Shown: piece after piece, positions 22,680 through 60,995 of the stretch
Layout of the letters: each line of letters starts with the position of its first letter
How positions within the stretch are numbered: the stretch's first letter is position 1
Assembly (NCBI GenBank): GCA_029959195.1
Contig: CP114125.1
Coordinates: 1,178,001 to 1,242,000, forward strand
DNA: 64,000 bases
Direction: 5' to 3'
From: Dictyophora rubrovolvata
Lineage: Eukaryota > Basidiomycota > Agaricomycetes > Phallales > Phallaceae
Notes under the pieces: model-generated
Told to the model about the DNA's origin: nothing
The model's database searches: none
What the model saw: only the letters and a program-made list of their open reading frames with translations
Program-made: the position numbers and the translations under genes

Positions 22680-24717
22680 ATGACAGACACAAATTTTTAT
22701 CTGAACGACAAGTCTGCATCAGTCTCAACCATCAATTTGGCACCCGAAGCTGACCGTGACGATGTCATCTCGAACTTGAAACCAAACGGCAGCACGAAAG
22801 CACATATGAATCTGGAGGAAAGTGGTAGTGTCGGTGTTCTGCCTGATAGCGTATATGACTCATCGCTGGTTTGGTGGCGTTCGGCCATGCGGAGATGGAT
22901 CATGTTATCACTCAAGGAAGAAAGCGCATGGATTGCGCGCATCCAGGTTGGTGCCAGTGGATTTGCTGGGAATATGTTTTCAGTGTTCACGAGTGTCAAA
23001 TAGGCATATAGGACGCCACTACTCGATACATATTTCTTATACACGTCCACTTTGGGAACCCATACTTTCTTTATGCTCCTCTTGCCGGCATGCTATTTTT
23101 TTGGTTACGATCGTATTGCTAGAACTTTAATGGCGCTGCTGGGACTAGGCGTATACTGGTCTTCTTTCTTCAAAGATCTAGTGTGTAGCCCCAGGCCGTA
23201 CGCACCTCCTGTTTCTCGACTAAGTAAGTGGCCTCAACACGATCCCAAATAATAACAACATCGACCAATATCTTTTAGCTATGGGAACACATCACTTAGA
23301 ATACGGCTTTCCCTCGACACATTCCACGAACACTATTTCTATGACGTTGTACCTTCACACGCTACTATACAGATTCTACACAACTGGTGCCCTTTTCCCT
23401 TCTATCTTATCTGGCGAAGGAGGCGATGAGATCACTCCTGGCCTCAACCCGTCAACCTTCCATGCCCTCCAACTCGCCTTGGCATGGTATGCTTGTACAA
23501 TTGTATTCGGACGCATCTATTGCGGCATGCATTCTATTACCGATTGCGTCGCTGGTTCCTTGTTAGGCGCTGCTATCTGGGGTGCGCATTGGCTGGTCGA
23601 GGAACGGATTGATGCATGGTCCAAATCCGGTGGTCTTGAGGGTAACTTTCCCCCACAAAATGACGTGCATCACATTCTGATGAAATCTTCTTTTTCCAGT
23701 CCCATTGATTTTCTCCCTCCTGTCGCTTCTACTGATCAACTATCATCCGCAACCAGTAGACGACTGTCCGTGCTTCGAAGACGCCGTCGCATGCATTGCA
23801 GCCTTATTGGGTACTATGCTGGGATTATGGCACGGGTGGTGGAGCGGATTGTTCCATGAAACGAGTACTGGGGAAGGCACTTTCAAGAAATTTCCAATAT
23901 CTCAAATGTCGAATCCTGTCGCCCTTCTGGCGGCCGGTACGAGGGTTATCGTGGGTAAGTTGGGGACGATGCTACCTTCCACATCAAGCTTACGTATATT
24001 TGCAGGTGTTGCATCCATATTTGCCCTGCGCCTAATTCTTAAATCAACATTGCACCTTGTCCTTCCTCCGCTTTACCGTATCCTTTCCAAATTAGTCTCG
24101 CTTCCTAACCGTCGGTTCTATACACCTGCTACAGAATACAAACGCGTACCACTCCGAAGAGGATGGGAAAGATTAGGTCCTAGTGTTGTTGACCTGGGAG
24201 AGTTAGGCGTTGGCTCTGGTTCCGGTGGTGAAGAGGTACTCAGCGTCACCGGCCGTGGACAGAGAGATGTCGAAGGCGGCGGATTGAAAAATCGAAATCC
24301 ATACTTTGGTGGCCTTGAAAGTGCCAAGGAGCGATACGTCGCTGTTAGCTCTGGTCATCTGAAGGAAAATGGTACCGCTAGGTCATATCCGAATGGTACT
24401 ACTTTGGTCGTAGGGCATGAATACGACTTCGATGACGATTCGGATGACGAGAGCAGCATTGCGGAAACGGAAAAAGGGGCCGAGACTACCGCTGTATTTT
24501 ACAAAATTCCTGTTTCCCCGTCCCCCGCCCTCGACCGCCCTTTGAGAAAGCGATACGATGCTGAAGGTATACCTTTTATTCTTTACTCCGCCTTTTTTTT
24601 GGACTTTTTTGAGCTGACTTTTGTAATTCAGTCTTAACAAAGATTATAGTTTATGTCTCAATCGGTCTTATAGCATCGGAGATTGCCCCTGTCTTGTTTG
24701 AGGTTGTAGGCTTATGA
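22680..24717 (+). CDS. LCB3: Long-chain-base-1-phosphate phosphatase (sphingosine-1-phosphate phosphatase, PAP2 superfamily)
   Basis: Six exons (22680-22946, 23004-23223, 23279-23641, 23700-23954, 24006-24566, 24632-24717) with five GT-AG introns of 51-65 bases give 583 residues in one unbroken frame. The three PAP2 motifs are present: KDLVCSPRP (about 146-154), PSTHS (His about 177), and R-x5-H-x3-D in GRIYCGMHSITD (Arg 241, His 247, Asp 251). Several hydrophobic helices surround them. Known relatives sit in the endoplasmic reticulum and dephosphorylate dihydrosphingosine- and phytosphingosine-1-phosphate in sphingolipid turnover. A hydrophilic acidic stretch (DFDDDSDDESS) lies before the last intron. 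The final exon LTKIIVYVSIGLIASEIAPV resembles the conserved C-terminus of yeast Lcb3-type proteins. Intron 4 (23955-24005) is a multiple of three without a stop, so its retention would keep the frame. Confidence 0.92.
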
Positions 24718-25281
24718 AAATTGACAGCCGAATGTTGATGCATTGATGAGTGAATGAACAACGAAACGTTACGTCGGGAGGGGGTTAAATGGGAGGAAGT
24801 GTACATTACATAAAAAGGGGCCTATTGATTTGGATCAAGGCTTTTTCTTTTTCTTCATTCGTCTATGGATTAATTGCAAGTCATTTTACGTTCTCGTTAG
24901 TTTATTGTTGAGTTTTCCTGCAACGCGTAATATTTTCTTCATTTTCCGTCTCGGTTTAACATAACTTTTCTCGCTGGTTCCTTTTTTTTCAATGGCATTT
25001 GTGTAATTCATTCACTTTTTTTACTCATACTCTCCTTTTCACTACTATTTAAGTTATATTGAACATACATTTAGTTATAATCCGAATTACAAGACCAGAT
25101 GAAAAGAATCAAAAGTTATTTTGAGATGGACGTAGAAAGTAATAAAAAACCTATGCTACTGATCAACCCATAATAATAAAGTTCTGTTAACGAAAATTAT
25201 GAAAACTCCAGGTCGACAAGTGTATGAAGATATTATACTCTAGCAAACTTCTTGAGAACCTCTTCGGTCCGTCTTCCCCTT

Positions 25282-25494
25282 TCAGCAAATGACGCACTGG
25301 TGGCCGTTTCCTGTGGCGATTGGTGCATCGTAGTCAACCAGTTCCATAGGGTCTGGCTCGTCTGATGAAGAAGATGGGGTCGAATTAGATTTGGATTCGG
25401 GATGGTTGTGCGAGACGACGTCTCCTTGGCTGTTGCCGGAAGGTAAGGAAAGCAGAGTAAGGCCGGTGAGAACGCGGGTGAATTCGTCGAACAT
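25282..25494 (-). CDS. CaaX-box mating-pheromone-like precursor, copy 1
   Basis: An intronless 70-residue ORF: MFDEFTRVLTGLTLLSLPSG at the start, a Ser/Asp/Glu-rich hydrophilic middle, and the end VDYDAPIATGNGHQCVIC. The C-terminal CVIC is a CaaX prenylation box. Short precursors with a polar middle and a terminal CaaX are the hallmark of basidiomycete lipopeptide pheromones, which are farnesylated, cleaved, exported and sensed by STE3-type receptors. The mature peptide would be the last 10-17 residues; the exact cleavage site is inference. A TATA-like TACATATAAATAC lies about 215 bases upstream. A second copy, 74 residues, lies 2.5 kb to the right. No receptor gene is visible in the window. 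Confidence 0.78.
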   Translation of the reverse strand: MFDEFTRVLTGLTLLSLPSGNSQGDVVSHNHPESKSNSTPSSSSDEPDPMELVDYDAPIATGNGHQCVIC

Positions 25495-25702
25495 TGTGAT
25501 TATGGGCGTGAAAAATGGGTTGGTATGAGAGTCGAGGTGATTGGACTTTGTCTCGAGTAGATAGTGAACTACTGACTAGGCGGTAATAGTTAAGAGGCAG
25601 ATATGAGTTTGATTTTGATTGGCGAGGTAAGCAATTACTCGATGAGGACGCTTGTTGCGTTGAGATTTGACTGATGTGAAATGCTTCTGTGCTTCCTGTG
25701 TA

Positions 25703-25715
25703 TTTATATGTATTC
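25703..25715 (-). promoter_or_regulatory. TATA-like box upstream of pheromone-like gene 1
   Basis: Reading leftward the sequence is TACATATAAATAC. The same string recurs at the equivalent place upstream of copy 2 (about 28183-28195). A conserved block of more than 150 bases lies further upstream in both copies. Conservation fits a promoter but does not prove it. Confidence 0.45.
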
Positions 25716-26628
25716 TAGAAAAATAAACACCTAAAGGAAAAATATCATGGTACTCAATACGCTCAAAAAGCCTTTCTGGAACATACAATAAAGTAGAGTC
25801 GTGCCTTGTCCATACAGGGGCCAACCTGACGTAGCTCCAGCTAGTATTCACGGAATAAGTATCACGTTCACGATCGGTCAGAATGCATGTCGGGCTTGTT
25901 TGACCTATCATTCGAGAACCGTGGGCAATAATGCTACATTCCGTCTACTCAGAGAATACCGAGTCAGTTCCGATGGCTGAGTAAATTATAAGGGTCGTGC
26001 CTTGGGTCCTGTCACACCTCTGTGTTTCCAGTTTTATTGTGTGGCCTCAATCGTCTTGATTGTTGTATTCCATTTTTGGACTGGTTTTGATAAACGTCAG
26101 TCTATTACATTTGCTGTAATACTTGCGCACAATTTAGTGAATCAATTTTTTTTAAAGGATGATTTTGCTTTGAGAGCGCGTATGCAATGCCCTTGTTGTT
26201 GAAACTTGTAAAACGTCTTGACTAGTCTAGTAGACCTGGACGATTATGGAGTAGAAAAGCGAGTACTAGTGCCTGAAAACTACTTACAATAAACCCAACC
26301 TTTACAGTAGTATCGGACAATAATCTGATTACCCTGAATACTTTGCAGAACACAAAAAGACACGAGACGAAACACAAAAAAGATGAGGCAGCAGAAATTG
26401 GCAATGACCCAGGGACGCGTTTGGGCGTCTGAAAGAACCGTCGGCATGCTGGCCGGGGCGCAGCCACGTTTCGTCAAGTTTAGCTGACAGGAGTCTTTAT
26501 GTTATGGTGGTGCAGCTAGCGATGAACGACAATTTGAGTGGTGCCGCTGCGTTTTTTTATCTTTGAATTAGCCTGTTCGGTTTCTTTCTGCTAAGGAAAA
26601 TCTAAGGACAAACTCAAATAAATGGTCT

Positions 26629-27475
26629 TTGGACACCATACACCAAACAGAGCGCAGCCTTCATTCCATCCTCTATCAATTGAAAAAGGTCCCCAACTCC
26701 GAGCTTAGGATAAACAAGCCTCGTCCAGATATACTCCGTAATATCTTGGCAGCTTACACCTCATCTTCTCCTGGGACAACTGCCTTAAACATTTCGCACG
26801 TATGCCATCTTTGGAGAAAATCTGCATTGGGATGGCCAGCTTTGTGGTCATTTTTGGATCTAAACAAAGCTCCTTCAATTGTTCGTTTATTCATGAAACG
26901 GTCGTAGAATGTTCCTCTCATGCTATCTTGGGAGGCAAGCCGGGCTGCCCATCTCCCTTTTGTCAAAGCTCCATCGGAATGGTTTTTCAAGGATTACGCA
27001 TACTCCAATTTACCCCGCTTGTGTTCTTTGACTGTAATTACTACATGCTCCAACTTTAAATATTTCCATCATGTCATCCAGAACTCTAGATTGCCACCAC
27101 TTTCATTGCGACGCTTACGTGTTCGCTTATTCGTAATAATCCCTGAACTTTATTGGCATATATGTAGTACCGCCGCCCTTAACACACTTGATAGACAACT
27201 CTTGTCTTCAAGAAATTGAACTCGACGGACTGGATTTACCGTGGCTGGGGCTTCTACATAACAAATTAACACATCTTACTTTGAATCCAGTAAACCCACC
27301 CACCCTGGCCCCTTTCAGCTCCTTGTCTTTCTGTCCAATTGCCCGATCCTGAACGTCCTTAAACTCGATTTTCAAGAAAAAAGCAACCACGGGACGGAAA
27401 CACTTTTCGCATCACAACCACATCAAGCCTGCTAACGTCCAATAAACTGGTTCTCAACCTTACCAGACTTGTCTC
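26629..27475 (+). pseudogene. F-box protein pseudogene
   Basis: The first block has the F-box pattern RPDILRNILAAY followed by LNISHVCHLWRKSALGWPAL and WSFLDLNK, as in the large basidiomycete F-box families. An in-frame TAG then interrupts the frame between VRLFMKRS and NVPLMLSWEASRAAHLPF, which belong together in this family. Later blocks in other frames (about 27210-27320, ELDGLDLPWLGLLHNKLTHL) resemble the leucine-rich part. The gene lies between the two copies of the pheromone-like duplication. Host F-box genes of this kind commonly decay; this one appears dead. Confidence 0.7.
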
Positions 27476-27483
27476 CGTAATGT

Positions 27484-28955
27484 CCACTTTTTACTCGTAC
27501 TCTCTTTTTCATCCAATTTCCGCCATTTAAGCTATATTGAACATACATAATTTAGTTATAATCCGAATCACAAGACCAGATGAAAAGAATGAAAAAAAAC
27601 TTTTTTAAGACGAATGTAGAATCGAACCAAAAGACGTATGCTACCGATCAACCCATAACAAAGTTCTGTAAACGAAAATGCCAGGTCGACAAGTGTACGA
27701 AAATATTATAATCTAGCAATCTCCTTGACAACCTCTTTGGTCCCCCTTCCCCTTTCAGCAAATGACGCAATAGCCGGTATGTGCGCCTGGTGAATCGTAG
27801 TCAACCAGCTCTATAAAGTCTGACTCGTCTGATGAAGAAGATGGGGTCGAATTGGATTTAGACTCGGGATGGTTGTGCGAGACGACGTCAGAAAGACGTG
27901 AAACGTCTCCTTCGCCGCTGCCAGAAGGTAAGGAAAGCAGGGTAAGGCCGGTGGGAACACGGTTGAATTCGTCGAACATTATGCTTATGGACGTAAAACA
28001 CGGGGTGGTATGAGAGTCGAGGTGATTGGACTTTGTCTCGAGTAGATAGTGAGTTACTGACTAGGCAGTAATAGTTAAGAAGCAGATATGAGTTTGATTT
28101 TGATTGATGAGGTAAGTGAGTACTCGATGAGGACGCCTGTTGCGTTGAGATTTGACTGATGGGGGAAGCTTCTGTTCTTCCTGTATTTATATGTATTCTA
28201 GAAAGATAAACGCCTAAAGGAAAAATATCATGGTACTTCATACGTTCAAAAAGCCTTTCTGGGACATACAATAAAGTAGAGTCGTGCCTTGTCCATACAG
28301 GGGCCAACCTGACGTAGCTCCAGCTAGTATTCACGGAATAAGTATCACGTTCACGATCGGTCAGAATGCATGTCGGGCTTGTTTGACCTATCATTCGAGA
28401 ACCGTGGGCAATAATACTACATTCCGTCCGCCCAGAGAATACCGAGTCACCATCGCCGAATGAGCACAGTTCTGATGGCTGAGTAGATTATAAGGGTCGT
28501 GCCTCGTGTCCTGTCAGATAAAATACACCTCCGAATTTCTAGTTTTATTGTGTCGCTCCAATCATCTTGATTGTTGTATTCCATTTTTGGATTGGTTTTG
28601 ATAAATGCCAGTTGATTACATTAGACTTGCGCACAATTTAATGAATCAAAGAACGTTTATCGAAGGATGACTTTTTTTTTTTGAAAGCGCGTATGCAACG
28701 TCCTTGCTGTTGAAACCTGTAAAGCGTCTTAACTAGTCTAGTAGACCTAGACAATTATGGAGTAAAGTGCTGAAAACTGCTTACAATAAACCCAACCCTT
28801 ACAGTAGCCAACACAATTTGATTACCCTAAATACTTTGCAGAACACAAAAAGACACGAAAAAAAACAAAAAGGATGAAGCAGCAGAAATTGGCAATGACC
28901 CAGGGACGCGTTTGGGCGTCTAAAAGAACCCGTCGGCATGCTGACCGGGGCGGAG
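27484..28955. repeat. Segmental duplication, copy 2
   Basis: Partner of 25015-26463 in direct orientation. The region upstream of the pheromone-like gene is the best conserved part, with stretches of 60 or more bases almost identical between copies. Both copies end near CAATGACCCAGGGACGCG followed by TTTGGGCGTCT. Confidence 0.9.
27755..27979 (-). CDS. CaaX-box mating-pheromone-like precursor, copy 2
   Basis: An intronless 74-residue ORF, MFDEFNRVPTGLTLLSLPSG to VDYDSPGAHTGYCVIC. It keeps the CVIC CaaX box. The N-terminus and Ser-rich middle are nearly the same as copy 1, apart from a four-residue in-frame insertion (RLSD region). The last residues before the CaaX box differ strongly (APIATGNGHQ versus SPGAHTGY). 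If the family assignment is right, the two genes release different lipopeptide pheromones. The upstream region matches that of copy 1. The next gene to the right is an alpha/beta hydrolase on the same strand. Confidence 0.78.
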   Translation of the reverse strand: MFDEFNRVPTGLTLLSLPSGSGEGDVSRLSDVVSHNHPESKSNSTPSSSSDESDFIELVDYDSPGAHTGYCVIC

Positions 28956-29050
28956 AGAGCCTCGTCAGGCTTAGCCTCTTCAAGTTCACGCACAAATGTA
29001 AGTTGATCGTCATTCGATTTCAAAAATTTCGTCTGATAAGTATTACAAGT

Positions 29051-30281
29051 TTAACACATAGAAACTAGTGCATCCAAAGTTTCTTCAGGATGGTCCCAGA
29101 GCATCTGAAAGGAGTCAAAGGACAAGTAAAAAAAAAACTTTGTCGAAGAACCACCAAACTTACAAACGTATTTTTGCCTTTGAGAACAGAAGATTTTACA
29201 GTCCCAACAGTTCCTTCTTGTGCCATCTTCTCTATTTCCCAGGCGGCATAGATAATAGACCAAGACACCGAATTCCCGTACAACAATCCCACTTGCAACA
29301 ACGGGAGTGAGGTCTTTATGGTTCGGTCGCACAAGACTCTCCGTGTCTGTTCAAGGAACTCTTTCTGAAATTTCTGGCACAAAGGATTCTCGGAGCGAGC
29401 CATCGCTCTATCATCGACCGTAGATGCACGTTCTTCCGGTGACATGTGAGCATATGTCGTGTTTTTTGGAATGACGTTAGTTGCGAGATAGTGCACGTCT
29501 TTGACGGACAAATCTCCATTGTCAAAATAGCCACTTGCCCAATGCATAAAGGCCTCTGGTCGAGCCTCTGGTAAAATGTTTGGATCAAGGTTAGGATAAT
29601 AAATCTCGATATCGTGTGGATGAGCAATCCCTAATGCAACCGCAGGTGCAGCTGAAAAAAATATATTCATACATACCAATTCCCTAGTCGTTGAATTCAA
29701 ACAATAAATACCCACTGTGAATAAATATCCTTCTCACGTAGACTCTTAATATGTCTCTAACGGCAATTGGATAAGAATCGACGGCCGAAACCACACCCAA
29801 GGAGGCCATATTTCCTAAAGACCACCCCATTAACGCTATCCCACCTGCCTTTCCATCGGAACTTGGAGCAGGAATAGAACATTCTTCAATCAGCCTAGTC
29901 ACCAGAGTAGCATATTCCAGTGCCCTGTGTTGTAAGAATACAGCTCTGGATTCTTTGTCGCCGTTTGCTATAATATCTAGTTCTTCAGCGGAGAACAATG
30001 TGGTGTCGGCGTAGTCGCGTCGGTTGACGCATATCAACCTAATGTTTGCGCTCGGAGCCAAGGTGATTGCTCTGTTGAATATACCTAACGAGACATGAGC
30101 AGCGATCACTCAGGCTTGGTGAGAAATTTATGTATGCATGATCAAATTACTAACCGCTGTTAAAAGCTAACCCATGAAATATAATAGCCGTCGTATAAAT
30201 ATCGCTCGCAGCAGGTTTCCCGCTGTCCGAGTAAGAGAAGTTCAAGACACGGTCGTTAACATTGACTGAAATGTCAAGCAT
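29051..30281 (-). CDS. Alpha/beta-hydrolase fold protein
   Basis: Four exons (30155-30281, 29716-30084, 29164-29651, 29051-29104) with introns of 59-70 bases give a 345-residue protein in one frame. The N-terminus has short beta-strand-like segments and TTAIIFHGLAFNSG (oxyanion-type HG motif). The nucleophile elbow GWSLGN (G-x-S-x-G) lies at about residue 130. A helical cap-like region rich in charged residues follows (SPEERASTVDDRAMARSENP). The acid and His of a triad may lie near the C-terminus, where the last exon has DHPEE. Likely a cytosolic hydrolase or esterase of unknown substrate; no signal peptide is seen. The stop lies about 95 bases beyond the end of the pheromone duplication. The second intron was placed by phase and could be shifted. 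Confidence 0.8.
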
Positions 30282-38100: not shown

Positions 38101-40594
38101 CTACGCCAGTGTCTCATCATCATCAATATTCTCAATAATCTCTTCCAGAGTGTTAACCGCATCAGAGACGTCCTTTCTTCGAATACCAGGCGGTGACTTC
38201 GGGCTTCTCTCCGGATCCGAAAGGGGCGTCTTAATATTCATCTTCAATGGTGATAAATCTTTAGGACTCGGATTCGGACTCTGACTCTGACTAGTCAAAG
38301 TCGCCGATAGAATGTCGATACTGGCTAATGCGGACAGACGTCTTTTCTCGGTATCTGTGGGTGTGACAGGGCCATGAGTGTCAGCAGAGGATTGAGAAGG
38401 TGTCGAGGCAGTTTCAAGTTCGTCATCCGTTGTTGAATCTACTTCCATTATTGAGGTAGTTACTTGATCGTCGATTGGATCTATTTCCATAGGATGTGGG
38501 CGTGGCGCTGGGGGTAATCGTTCGTTTTCAATATCCGATTTTCGACTACGAGGGTTTTTTTTTTTTAAAAAAAAAAGGCAGAATGAAAGTTAAACAGTTG
38601 TGTGACGTACGCTTCTTCGAAAGTGGTTATTGCATTCCGAATGCCTTCTGCACCACTGGCTAGAGTCCCATACGGCAATTTCGTCATACCAGCAAGACTT
38701 TTCAATTCCGAGACTTTTTCTGATTCCTCCCTATGGTATTAACCAATTATTTTTTGTTAGCAAAAAAAACAAACTAAGGATGAAACGACCAACCGAAGCA
38801 AGGAGAATACTCTGGCCATTCGGCCTATTACCCGTATCTTGTTTTTAATGACATGCCTTCTGTCGGCCACATCTCCGTTCATAGAGTTGGGAGAGTCTAA
38901 TACTGATGTTAGGGTATCTTCAGCTTCGACTTCGACAGCAGGGGTAGTCAAGTTCCCTTCCAATTCCTCTCTGGTACAACAATTAAGCACGGCGACAAGC
39001 ATTTCCGTGACTAAATTACCACTTTAAACCACATCCAAGAAGAGAAAAAGTCATAGGCATACTTTTCAAACCAAGGAAAGGTAAACTCCAAGTAAAAACA
39101 TCCATAAACTCGGGTAACCAATAAGGATGCGGTGAATGATTGAACTGTCGAATGTTCATATAGCCGCCGTCGTATTTAAAAATGGCTGCCTTGTTATTGT
39201 ACGCATCCAAATAATTAGGTGCTGAGAAAACTGTCATAACGGCTGGGAATCCCGTTGTTACTGTTTTACGGTAACATCGATACCCAGCAACTTGAGCTTC
39301 ATGAGCTCGAATGATTGATAATAAATTATTGCGTTCCAAGAATTTGCATGCGGCACGATAGCTGGCAAAATAATTAACGAGAGACTTTTCTTTTGCCTGT
39401 ATAAACTGGACATACGTATAAAAATAGGAGCATCCTCTAGTGTGATTGTCAACAAAAGTTTCGTCTTGGTTCCGTTCTTGTCCAAAAGTCTCGATGGGGT
39501 CTGACCATAAAATATCACACATAAGCCCCTTTGTTGGTGGTTCACGGAAACGATTTAACTGAAATAAATAATGTCAAAGAATAAAACGAAATCTATGTAT
39601 AGAGAAAGTTTTACGTTTCGCAAGTCGTTCAGAGTTTCAAGTTCGGGAGAAAGTCCACCATGAATACACAAAAATTGGCCATTCATTATTGCCGCTAGGG
39701 GCAACGCGCAAAATGACTCAATACAGGCTTCGTAGACATTTAAAGAATATTTATGCACACATTCACGCTTGAATGTGAAATATTCTGTAAGATGTCTGCA
39801 TTCGTGATTTCCGCGGAGAAGAAATATTGAATCCGGAAAGCATATCTTCAATGACCATATATAAAGAACACACTAGTGTTATATGGAGATGAAGAGTTAT
39901 ACTTTACATGATAGAGATTAAACTGCTCACTTCGATGCTGAAATAGCCTCTATCTACATAGTCTCCCAAAAACAAATATCTGGTCTCTGCTGGGTCTCCT
40001 CCAACGTTATTGTCGAACAGTTTCATAAGGTCATACTATAACGAAAATGAGATACGGCGGGCAGACACTGAAAAAGATGATGTTTGCTAACGTATTGGCC
40101 ATGAATGTCTCCGCATACTATGCTCAAGTTCAAAAAGATGCCACGGCAAGTTGGGATTCAGCATACCGGTTAACGGAACATCCAGCTCCAGAACATTCGG
40201 TTCTTTCTTCAAGATGCTTGTGGCGGTTTGAATGATATAAAGGGCTTGAGACTCAGTTACTTTTCCTTCGTTAAAGAAATGTTGCTTTAAGAACGCGATA
40301 TTTGGTTTGGTCCGATCAGAAGGAGAGAAAAATTCTTCTTCTGTGGGCAGACGGGATTCCGGTGGCTTTACCTAGAAAAGACAAAGAAAAGAGGCACGAA
40401 TTAGATCTACCGAGCGCACTTTCTTTGGGGTAATGTCGGTGGCAAAAGAACAATAGACCTACATCCTTGATGAACCGTTCCTTCGTGGAAACGAAGGAAT
40501 CAAGATAGGGCTGCTGCGTGAAATCAGTGTTTACAACAGGTAACGTTTGACTCTCCTTGATCTGAAGTGCAGCATTTTCGAGCTGAGATTGCAT
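38101..40594 (-). CDS. CNA1: Calcineurin catalytic subunit A (Ca2+/calmodulin-dependent Ser/Thr phosphatase, PP2B)
   Basis: Ten exons give 649 residues in one frame: 40463-40594, 40167-40371, 40092-40117, 39931-40035, 39615-39872, 39416-39558, 39063-39361, 38794-39010, 38611-38730, 38101-38545. Metallophosphatase motifs are complete: VCGDIHGQY (about 114-121), GDYVDRG (145-151), LLRGNHE (174-180), and later RAHEAQ and SAPNYLD. The calcineurin-B binding helix region, the calmodulin-binding segment ([20 protein letters not shown]) and the autoinhibitory motif ([19 protein letters not shown]) follow in order. The Ser/Pro/Asp-rich tail is long, as in fungi. The protein is the target of cyclosporin and FK506 complexes and drives Ca2+ signalling to Crz1-type factors (family knowledge). 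The ATG is preceded in frame by a stop four codons upstream. Confidence 0.97.
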
Positions 40595-46189: not shown

Positions 46190-48267
46190 TTACACCTCCA
46201 TACCCTCTTCGTGAGCCTCTTCCGTCTTGACTCGGATTTCTTTCATACCAGGCCGAACTCGTCTTCTGCCTCTTTCTTCTTCATCCCCCAATAACGTGCC
46301 GTTACCATTCGGGATGGCATCGCTTCTGCGCCTTGCATGTTGGCGTACTTTGTTATTATTCGCACCATCCAAAGTAATAGGCGACTCTGAAGAATGTCCT
46401 TGAGATGATCCCTCCACATCGTTCTCATTATCAAGATCGGGCGAATTATCGTCCCCTTCCTGTTCCTCAATTTCTTCCTCATCGCCTTCCATGGGATCAT
46501 CGAGAAGGCCAATTCCTCCGGGATGCTGTTGTCCGAAAATGTCCATCCCCATCAGCACGTTTAAATTCATGCCATTCATTCCCATACCCATATTATGCAT
46601 CATTCCCACCATATTTATGTTAATATCGCTAAGGTTGAATTCGCCATTAGGTCCAATACCGGAATTGACGTCGAATTGTGAATGACCATTAGTAGCGTTG
46701 TTAGACAACGAGCGAGCCTTGTTATTCTCGCCGTTCCCGGAGCCAAGTCCGTTAGTCTCCTTGGAGGACGATCCAACATCTTTGTTGTTTTCCATTTTGC
46801 GATCCGATGTTAATGATGGGGATGACGAGCCACTATTGGCAACTGCGCTTCCATTTCCGTTCGCACCGGTTTTCGAGGCGGCAAGTTGTGCCTCCAACTC
46901 CCGGTTCCGGGTCGCTTGAGCGTTAACGAGTTGTTGAAGGTACCTACGAGAAACAAAAGAATAAATGAATTTCTTCTGGTTTCATATAATGTTTTAACGT
47001 AATAGTACCTTATGTATTCAACACTCTTCTTGAGAATCATGCCCTTGTTCGCTTTCACAGGTCCTCCTGGAGCCGATGCACCATTAGGGGTTGAAGAATC
47101 CTTCTTTTCATCTGCTTCGGGGGAAAACGCCTCTGCTGTGTCTAATAGGAACATAAAAACCTGTTCCGCCCATGCGAAAAAAAAATTGTGTGGTTTACCT
47201 GCCAAGGTATTTCCATTAGCATCAAGCATGCATTCCGGAATAAGCGTGGCCAATTCCGTTATTTTCTCATTGATATTATCTCGTCGACGCCTTTCGACGG
47301 CATTGTGCGACTCCCGGCGGCGGCGGCGTTTTTCCGAAGCTATTTGTGCTCTAACAAATGACGAGAGTTTAGTTAATTTTTCTTTTCTTGAAAGTTATAA
47401 TTAGATGAGAGCGGAATGCACTGACTGCTTGGCTGCGACATCGGGGGCTTGCGGGGGCGGTGGGGATTCCTTGGCGCTAACGCTCTTCGGGCTGGCGGCA
47501 GGTAAGCTGCCCGGACCAGAAAAAGAATGATGAATGGGGATGCTATCGGGTGTCGGAAGACTGAAAGGCGAATCGGTGGTTCTGAATGAATCTCCCGGAG
47601 TTCCATTGGTGCCACTGCCTCCTCTGAACGGTGAGTCCATGAACCAAGCAGATGGCGCTGTATGTGGATGCATGTGCATACTGAGAGGAGAGACAGGATG
47701 GTGGTGGTGGTTCGATCCTGTAGATGGGGGGATTAGAATAGCTTGAGGACGAGAATGGTGGTGGTGATGAGATGGAGGCGGAGAGGTTGGACGGGGTGAG
47801 GAGGATGAAATGGACCCTCGCTTGTGCCGCTGCACTCTTCCGCCATTGTTGCTATTGTCGACCTTGGAACGCGACCTGGATCGAGAATGGGGTCTGAGAT
47901 TGGAGTAAGAAGTATCGAATGTGGCGTTATGGGCTGTATTCGTTGCAGGTAGAGAGAAGTGATGGGGGAACGGAGCCGGACTTGAAACATCGAAGATGTT
48001 ATGTGGCCTGTACGAGTTTGAAGTAGTGCTGGTATCGAAAGGATTGTGTGGACGAGGAGTGATATCTTGATTGCTGCTACCCATGAAGGCGGCCAAGTCA
48101 TCTGCGAAATCTGTGGGCGGGTTGGGTTTGACGTTATTATAGAGATGGTGGCCAAAGAACATGGCGTTGTTTGGGTCAAATTGTGATGGCGAAGGAGGAC
48201 GGTGCTGTGGCGGAATATCAAAGCCTTCCTGGCGAACTTTTGGTTGAGAATTCGTGAAATAGGCCAT
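46190..48267 (-). CDS. bHLH transcription factor
   Basis: Four exons (47426-48267, 47199-47350, 47009-47135, 46190-46943) give 624 residues. Exon 1 is Ser/Pro/His-rich and disordered. The basic region follows at about 288-310 (RRRRESHNAVERRRRDNINE) with the H-x3-E-x3-R pattern of class B factors that bind CACGTG E-boxes. Helix 1 ends ELATLIPECM. The loop is unusually long, about 40 residues rich in Ser/Gly/Pro, and an intron sits inside it. Helix 2 is NKGMILKKSVEYIRYLQQLV, followed by a zipper-like tail (NAQATRNRELEAQL). The C-terminal part is Asn/Gly/Met-rich, then acidic. A nuclear dimeric regulator is expected; the target pathway cannot be read from the sequence. Codon use and splice sites look healthy. 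Confidence 0.93.
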
Positions 48268-59297: not shown

Positions 59298-59347
59298 TCT
59301 AAAGGACCCCACCTGGAGACAGAGCAGCATCTTCTCCATACCAACAG

Positions 59348-60995
59348 ATGATTACGGGCCCTCCAGACTCTTCAATGAACAAAATGCAAAATCAAGAGGC
59401 AAACGTCTATCCAGCGCCCGGTGGTCCCCCACCATCATACACACATGATTCTATGGCGTATCCTCCACAGGCGTACCCACCTTCGGTGGATGGAAGCTCT
59501 AGCTCATCGCGCTTCGCAGAAACTGGCTCAAGCTCTCAATACCAACCCCAATGGCAGGGATCTCCAACATCCCCCGTACCCCCAGCATCCAACCACTCTG
59601 CTCCTTATCCTTATCCAGCCCCAAGTGAACTTTCTCCTCCTGTTCCACCTACCACTGCAGAAAGGTCTCTCAGTCCTTCTTTTGGTTTTGACAAAAAACG
59701 CGACCCTTTGAACCCCCCTCCACCCTCATTTTCTCGACCAGCTCCTCCGCATCAGGGTCCGTTTCCGTCTTTTCCGCCTTTGACACTCTACAGCAAAGCA
59801 CCGACCCTCGATAAGGGATTTCCAGTCGCTCTACCAGAGCCATCCGATCGTTTCTTCACTGACGTTAACCCTTCTCAACAACAATACCCATACCAGCAGC
59901 AAAACCCCTATCGTCAACAACAGAACCCTTACCAACAACAGAGTCCCTACCAACAACAGAACCCATACCAACAACAGAACCCATACCAACAACAGAATCC
60001 TTACCAACAACAGAACCCTTACCAGCAACAGAACCCGTACCAACAACAAAACCCTTACCAACAAAACCCCTACCAGCAACAAAACCCCTACCGACAACAA
60101 AACTATTCTCAACCGGAAACTTTTGTTCATCCATTCTTCGAAAGAGATGTAGACCAAGCGGATTGGAGAAGGTATGAAAAGTTATAGTTCATATCTCGTC
60201 ATGCCTCTCAATGACTTAAACCGAATGTTCAAACAGGTTGATTGAAGATATGTACATTGTAGCGCAGCTTTCTGGAACCCAGAAGATAACTGCAAACGTT
60301 TTGCCAATGGCTGCCGGTGCAGGCTTCGTAGGCGGCTTATTCTTGACTCGGTCTATTGAGAGACGCATGAAAAAGAAGAAGAACGAGCCCGTAGCAGATC
60401 TAATTGATACGTGGAATCAGGTAAATGGTTTTACCACCCTTAGAACAATATTCTTATTCACCCCGGGAATGTATAGTATTTCTTCCACCCACGTGGGCTT
60501 CACGTCATTCTAGCTCATGGTGCTGAAAGCATCAGTGGCGATATAGATGGTCCAGCACCTGACTGGGTTCAGTCCAGACGTGCGCGTGATTCTTCAGACT
60601 CAGAGTTTAGCTCAGAAGACGAAGCACCCCAGCGTGCCGGGCGCCGTGGCGGTGGTAGCAGCGGTGGAATTGGTGGTATTGGGGGAGGCCTAGGTGGCAT
60701 TGGGGGTAGCGTTCTCGGAAGACTCGAGTCTAAACTCTCTCCAAGGCAAGCACCTCAACGCTCTGGGCGCCGTAGTGGCGGCGGGGGAGGGGGCATTGGG
60801 GGTATTGGTGGCGGCGTTGGTGGCGTCGTTGGTGGCGTTTTCGGAAAACTCGAGTCCAGACTTTCTTCAAAACTCGAAAAGATAGACTCGAAGGTAGGCG
60901 GGAGGAAGGAAAGGGGGCAAGAGCGACAATCTCACCGTTCCAACCGGAAAGCGCAGAGGACTGAGAACTACAGACTTGTCGTAGTCCCCACTTAG
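59348..60995 (+). CDS. Conserved basidiomycete protein with PYQQQN repeats and Gly-rich C-terminus
   Basis: Three exons (59348-60171, 60237-60420, 60477-60995) give 508 residues. The N-terminal half is Pro/Ser/Tyr-rich and disordered and carries about 13 tandem units of PYQQQN or close variants (about residues 178-255). A conserved globular block follows: DVDQADWRRLIEDMYIVAQL, then NVLPMAAGAGFVGGLFLTR, then RRMKKKKNEPVADLIDTWN, then YFFHPRGLHVILAHG. I recall similar blocks in uncharacterised basidiomycete proteins but know no function. The AGAGFVGGLFL stretch is hydrophobic enough to be a membrane anchor. The C-terminus alternates Gly-rich tracts (GGIGGIGGG) with repeated GR-LESKLS-like segments and ends basic. 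No signal peptide is seen. Confidence 0.8.
59881..60111. repeat. 18-bp coding minisatellite (PYQQQN units)
   Basis: Tandem units close to CCTTACCAACAACAGAAC, about 13 in number, some shortened by one codon. All keep the reading frame of the surrounding gene. Confidence 0.9.

Follow-up and report, generated by a model that had tools for sequence, protein, structure and literature searches.

Probable pheromone-like precursor genes in tandem outside the mating-type loci of Dictyophora rubrovolvata

Introduction

Two small reading frames that end in a CaaX box lie in tandem on one contig of the Dictyophora rubrovolvata genome, and they raise the question of whether they are genes for lipopeptide pheromone precursors and, if so, what such genes would do where they lie. 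The window analyzed here, a stretch of 64,000 nucleotides, spans positions 1178001-1242000 on contig C9, one of the 11 contigs that make up the genome of 28,239,528 bases. A first-pass annotation of its letters had described a pair of intronless minus-strand ORFs of 70 and 74 codons with a common MFDEF start, a polar middle and a terminal CVIC, and had read them as basidiomycete lipopeptide pheromone precursors.

Results

The reading frames and their family membership

Our ORF check found both frames exactly where they had been placed (Table 1), and the common start, middle and end were borne out, with the CaaX box (CVIC) standing at the stop codon of each copy. In a genome protein search, the two proteins are 81% identical. 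Chance is a poor source of such frames: simulating the 64-kb window 120 times under an order-2 Markov model yielded no CVIC-ended ATG ORF of at least 65 aa, against two observed, and on this point the pair withstood the check that the earlier annotation had put forward. When any CaaX-like ending was admitted, ORFs this long averaged 0.575 per simulated window against three observed, the third lying at 38757-39002 with the end CFFC; since they are not rare in the simulations, a CaaX ending alone is weak evidence.

Table 1. Positions of the paired frames, the duplicated DNA around them and the receptor-adjacent ORFs (window positions, or contig positions where prefixed C11)
Feature	Position	Strand	Basis and remarks
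CDS copy 1, ends CVIC	25282..25494	-	70 aa, single exon; DxD motif; no Pfam match
CDS copy 2, ends CVIC	27755..27979	-	74 aa, single exon; PF08015 23.0 bits; DxD motif
Duplicated unit 1 (about 1.4 kb), with CDS copy 1 and upstream DNA	25069..26439	.	repeat families, alignment
Duplicated unit 2, with CDS copy 2 and upstream DNA	27550..28930	.	repeat families, alignment
TATA-like site CATATAAAT	25702..25710	-	216 bases upstream of copy 1 ATG; consensus match only
TATA-like site CATATAAAT	28185..28193	-	214 bases upstream of copy 2 ATG; consensus match only
Conserved upstream block, unit 1, 170 bases	25763..25932	.	1 mismatch to copy 2 block
Conserved upstream block, copy 2	28246..28415	.	alignment
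CaaX ORF, 37 aa, CIIS	C11:862929-863042 (L030:2929-3042)		beside STE3 cluster
CaaX ORF, 37 aa, CTIS	C11:876231-876344 (L031:6231-6344)		beside STE3 cluster

A search with a pheromone-precursor profile had also been proposed, and here the outcome is divided. Copy 2 lies above the cut-off of PF08015, the fungal mating-type pheromone family (23.0 bits, cut-off 22, E 1.8e-4), and none of eight shuffled versions of it, four keeping CVIC and four keeping the last ten residues, matched the profile, whereas for copy 1 alone Pfam gave nothing at E values up to 1. The pair is absent from the output of a six-frame PF08015 search of the genome at E 1; we set aside the one match in that output, on C6 (17.4 bits), as sub-threshold, there being no stop codon and no CaaX ORF at that place. 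The two receptor-adjacent CaaX ORFs described below fare little better, one scoring 15.2 bits, below the cut-off, and the other having no match, and these scores, together with the omission of the pair from the six-frame search, make PF08015 a weak judge in this genome. Both lengths fall inside the precursor range of 40-100 aa quoted in PMC8686365.

Genome context

The STE3 receptor profile has at least 17 exon-level matches in the genome, and all 17 of those listed lie on C11, where they group into five genes, four at 864-874 kb and one at 1012-1013 kb. Homeobox_KN has five matches, four on C3 and one on C7, and we infer that the two pairs on C3, which stand about 47 kb from each other, are the A mating-type locus. 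With STE3 on C11 and Homeobox_KN on C3 and C7, a tetrapolar-type layout is most likely, and the separate contigs suggest that the loci are unlinked. Contig C9 carries no Homeobox_KN match and, among the matches listed, no STE3 match; linkage to STE3 genes, by which a B-locus pheromone gene is recognized, is thus lacking for the pair, which lies on C9 where the listed receptor matches lie on C11. Being apart from both the STE3 and the homeobox contigs, the two frames have the look of pheromone-like precursors situated away from the mating-type loci. Elsewhere in the window, there are a frame for a helix-loop-helix transcription factor (46813-47394, minus strand; PF00010, 48 bits) and a frame in which NPYQQQ-type repeats follow one another over a long stretch (59303-60184, plus strand; DUF4646, 27.4 bits against a cut-off of 23.4).

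The receptor cluster on C11 is itself flanked by two CaaX ORFs, in which we see the likely pheromone precursors of the B locus here. They resemble the pair in having a CaaX box with an [ILV]DxD motif 8-10 residues before its cysteine, and differ from it in their length of 37 aa, their CIIS and CTIS ends, their MD start and their STE3 neighbors. A genome search with the ORF at C11:876231 as query found only that ORF and no relatives.

A predicted processing motif

The [ILV]DxD motif ends 8-10 residues before the CaaX cysteine in all four of these ORFs, as IDQD and LDED in the receptor-adjacent ones and as VDYD in both members of the pair. DxD at that spacing is found in none of 14 other C-x-x-x ORFs; body shuffles produce the [ILV]DxD form in 0.4-1.0% of cases and plain DxD in 2-6%; and across 293,968 bases of loci searched (overlaps included), these four are the only ORFs of 25-140 aa that conform to the DxD rule. 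The motif was noticed before the test and the two window copies are duplicates, so these frequencies are not independent tests. [ILV]DxD is a plausible N-terminal processing site. According to PMC3140503, mushroom precursors bear, some 10-15 residues short of the C-terminus, a charged pair which is supposed to be the N-terminal processing site, and the position of DxD in the pair fits the place given there for the charged motif; the exact ER or EH dipeptide is absent from the processing position of both copies. A Glu 10 residues before the CaaX box is described as typical, and not universal, in PMC8686365. By eye, this position holds Ala in copy 1, Tyr in copy 2, Gln in the C11:862929 ORF and Glu in the C11:876231 ORF, and a Glu in the pair stands 16 (copy 1) and 14 (copy 2) residues before the Cys. 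The putative mature regions would be APIATGNGHQC for copy 1 and SPGAHTGYC for copy 2.

Search for further precursors

Genome-wide, the pattern for CVIC plus a stop codon has 15 matches against 11 for the reversed control, and that for CV[IVM][AS] plus a stop has 38 against 37; with counts this close to the controls, the matches are mostly chance. The second pattern admits only GCT and GCC for Ala and TCT and TCC for Ser, and both also admit TGG, which is no stop; 35 of the 38 matches were read, the other three ending in TGG. Among the frames of the 15 and of these 35 matches, those that begin with ATG and exceed 40 aa are the pair and two others, both rejected: a 48-aa CVIC frame without the DxD motif (L023) and a 134-aa frame that by eye resembles part of a protein kinase (L056). 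No CV[IVM][ASC]-ended frame occurs within the 10 kb that border the window on each side. This reading of the frames leaves the pair as the only such precursors found off C11, a statement that holds for single-exon genes with the scanned ends, as CVVC, CVMC, CI.., CT.. and further ends lie outside the genome-wide scan, which would also miss split genes; C-x-x-x ends beyond the scanned ones were looked for in just two stretches, C11:850001-890000 and 1002001-1022000. Among the papers searched, none joined CVIC with pheromone precursors.

Tandem duplication and upstream DNA

Ten repeat families link the two duplicated units, with 87-96% identity and a spacing of 2467-2511 bases. Both ORFs lie inside this one tandem duplication and therefore represent one duplicated event rather than two independent ones. 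The best conserved part of the duplication is upstream of the frames, where the stretch at 25701-25966 differs between the copies by 3.8% (10/265) against 10.7-13.9% in the other flanks (MAFFT); within it, the 170-base block stands 267-269 bases upstream of the start codons in both copies. Three identities for this block were considered and rejected. As an RNA gene, it has no Rfam match to E 0.1 across 24800-29100; as a coding exon, its open frames (25579-25944 and 27891-28487) have no Pfam match to E 0.1; and as a dispersed repeat it fails, since a genome search with 25701-25966 gives two matches, which are its own two copies. From its sequence, the block may be a selectively kept, possibly shared promoter, or a gene-conversion tract. 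Between the duplicated units, open frames at 26572-27219 on the plus strand resemble, by eye, a broken F-box protein, and no Pfam match was found for the frame 26572-26904; near the pair, at 23224-23859 on the plus strand, lies a PAP2-family phosphatase frame (PF01569, 54.3 bits).

Divergence between the copies

The coding copies differ at 27 of 207 aligned bases (13.0%, MAFFT; 28 differences in the codon alignment), which is not below most flanks. Their two indels, of 18 and 6 bases, are both in frame; 6 of 15 flank indels are also multiples of three, so that in-frame indels in the CDS are by themselves weak evidence. The differences are unevenly spread. Up to and including ELVDYD, the pro-part has nine non-synonymous and seven synonymous differences (dN/dS 0.38), while the eight aligned codons of the putative mature part have 11 and one, respectively, the CVIC codons are unchanged, and the CDS as a whole gives a dN/dS of 0.77. 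Against a neutral rate of 12.5%, our own choice from the flanks, about 16 non-synonymous changes would be expected in the pro-part where nine are seen (P 0.034), and the count for the mature part is high (P 1.6e-6), although its alignment is uncertain because of the 6-base indel. Non-synonymous changes per site differ between the mature part and the pro-part (P 3e-7); a Fisher test on their non-synonymous to synonymous counts is not significant (P 0.088). In this comparison, the pro-part is mildly conserved and the putative mature peptide has strongly diverged between the copies, a pattern that would fit ligand diversification, suggestively only, as it comes from two sequences and a short stretch containing an indel.

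Discussion

Our analysis supports the first-pass reading of these frames as basidiomycete lipopeptide pheromone precursors on three counts, namely the match of copy 2 to PF08015, the presence in the genome of STE3 receptor matches with adjoining CaaX ORFs, and the DxD motif and CaaX spacing that the pair has in common with those ORFs. Judged from sequence, the two ORFs are probably real and functional pheromone-like precursor genes outside the mating-type loci. Precedents for such genes exist. PMC8305134 describes four pheromone-like precursors in Agaricus bisporus whose genes are found apart from the mating-type locus, with three on one chromosome, and states that three of the mature peptides are similar to peptides from Coprinopsis cinerea and Laccaria bicolor that are likewise of the non-mating-type class. 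In Pleurotus tuoliensis, according to PMC5755439, two further pheromone-like peptides lie on scaffolds 47 and 85, which are other than the B-locus scaffolds; our pair is likened to these by description only, in being off the B-locus scaffolds. With precedents in A. bisporus, Coprinopsis, Laccaria and P. tuoliensis, off-locus pheromone-like precursors are already a known kind, and the pair is the more probably real for it. As described in PMC8305134, the A. bisporus non-mating-type precursors are, like the pair, small, off-locus, present in several copies and CaaX-ended, and they carry a charged motif ahead of the mature peptide. By that description, however, they are 44-54 aa long against 70-74 aa, begin with MDS/AF rather than MFDEF, and have mature peptides that are all G-rich where each of ours has two glycines (PMC8305134). 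The pair stands out by its tandem arrangement, by the length of its products, by the DYD motif and by the way in which pro-part and mature part differ in their conservation; we do not claim that these have never appeared in print.

We think it quite probable that these are tandemly duplicated lipopeptide pheromone-like precursor genes outside the B (pheromone/receptor) locus, which would act via STE3-type receptors in a non-mating-type role. Each precursor would be prenylated on the CaaX cysteine, would lose VIC and be carboxymethylated, and would be cut on its N-terminal side near the acidic ELVDYD motif. The product leaving the cell would be a lipopeptide some 9-11 residues long, and it may act on one or more of the STE3-type receptors encoded on C11, with a function other than the determination of mating type, e.g. 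self-signaling after mating or during fruiting.

The divergence of the mature part can also be read as decay. The pair could be pheromone genes that have left the B locus and now survive as relics, one or both of them yielding no active peptide, which would account for the 11 non-synonymous changes against one synonymous in eight aligned codons and would agree with the weakness of the purifying signal in the pro-part. Both frames, however, are unbroken and retain the start, the acidic motif and the CaaX box, the only two indels are in frame, the pro-part keeps its dN/dS of 0.38, and nothing in the duplication is better conserved than the upstream block, all of which makes decaying relics an unlikely explanation.

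CVIC is a legal prenylation box whatever the protein, and the pair might therefore encode small intracellular prenylated proteins that are not secreted, the CaaX box merely anchoring an acidic peptide to membranes. The processing of the pair is a prediction from sequence, and at 70-74 aa the two frames are long beside the 37-aa receptor-adjacent ORFs, points which sit well with such anchored proteins; the PF08015 match of copy 2, the DxD motif and spacing held in common with the receptor-adjacent ORFs, and the 40-100 aa range quoted in PMC8686365 speak against them, and we regard them as very improbable. That the frames arose by chance and were copied along with a duplicated non-coding segment is scarcely credible. 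A CDS divergence that is not below most flanks, and a copy 1 without a family match, are what chance frames would give, but CVIC ORFs of such length are missing from all 120 simulations, shuffling abolishes the family match of copy 2 in eight of eight trials, and the motif recurs beside the receptors.

Returning to off-locus precursor genes as the preferred explanation, one extension of it is possible, though we hold it to be doubtful: that the signaling part of the pair was diversified by selection after the tandem duplication, under one shared promoter block. If so, the fungus would have gained from the two copies a pair of new peptide ligands that are independent of the B locus, and these would serve non-mating STE3 receptors or act as raw material for new B specificities. 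Receptor-like genes without neighboring pheromone genes are described for S. commune in PMC8161036, and PMC8305134 states that pheromone binding and function of the non-mating STE3-like receptors of mushrooms are unknown. One published precursor search, as given in PMC8686365, covered 5 kb on either side of receptor genes. The pair shows that precursor genes are worth seeking genome-wide and, since only two synthetic peptides would have to be paired with about five receptors, it offers a small and tractable system for the study of the non-mating receptors.
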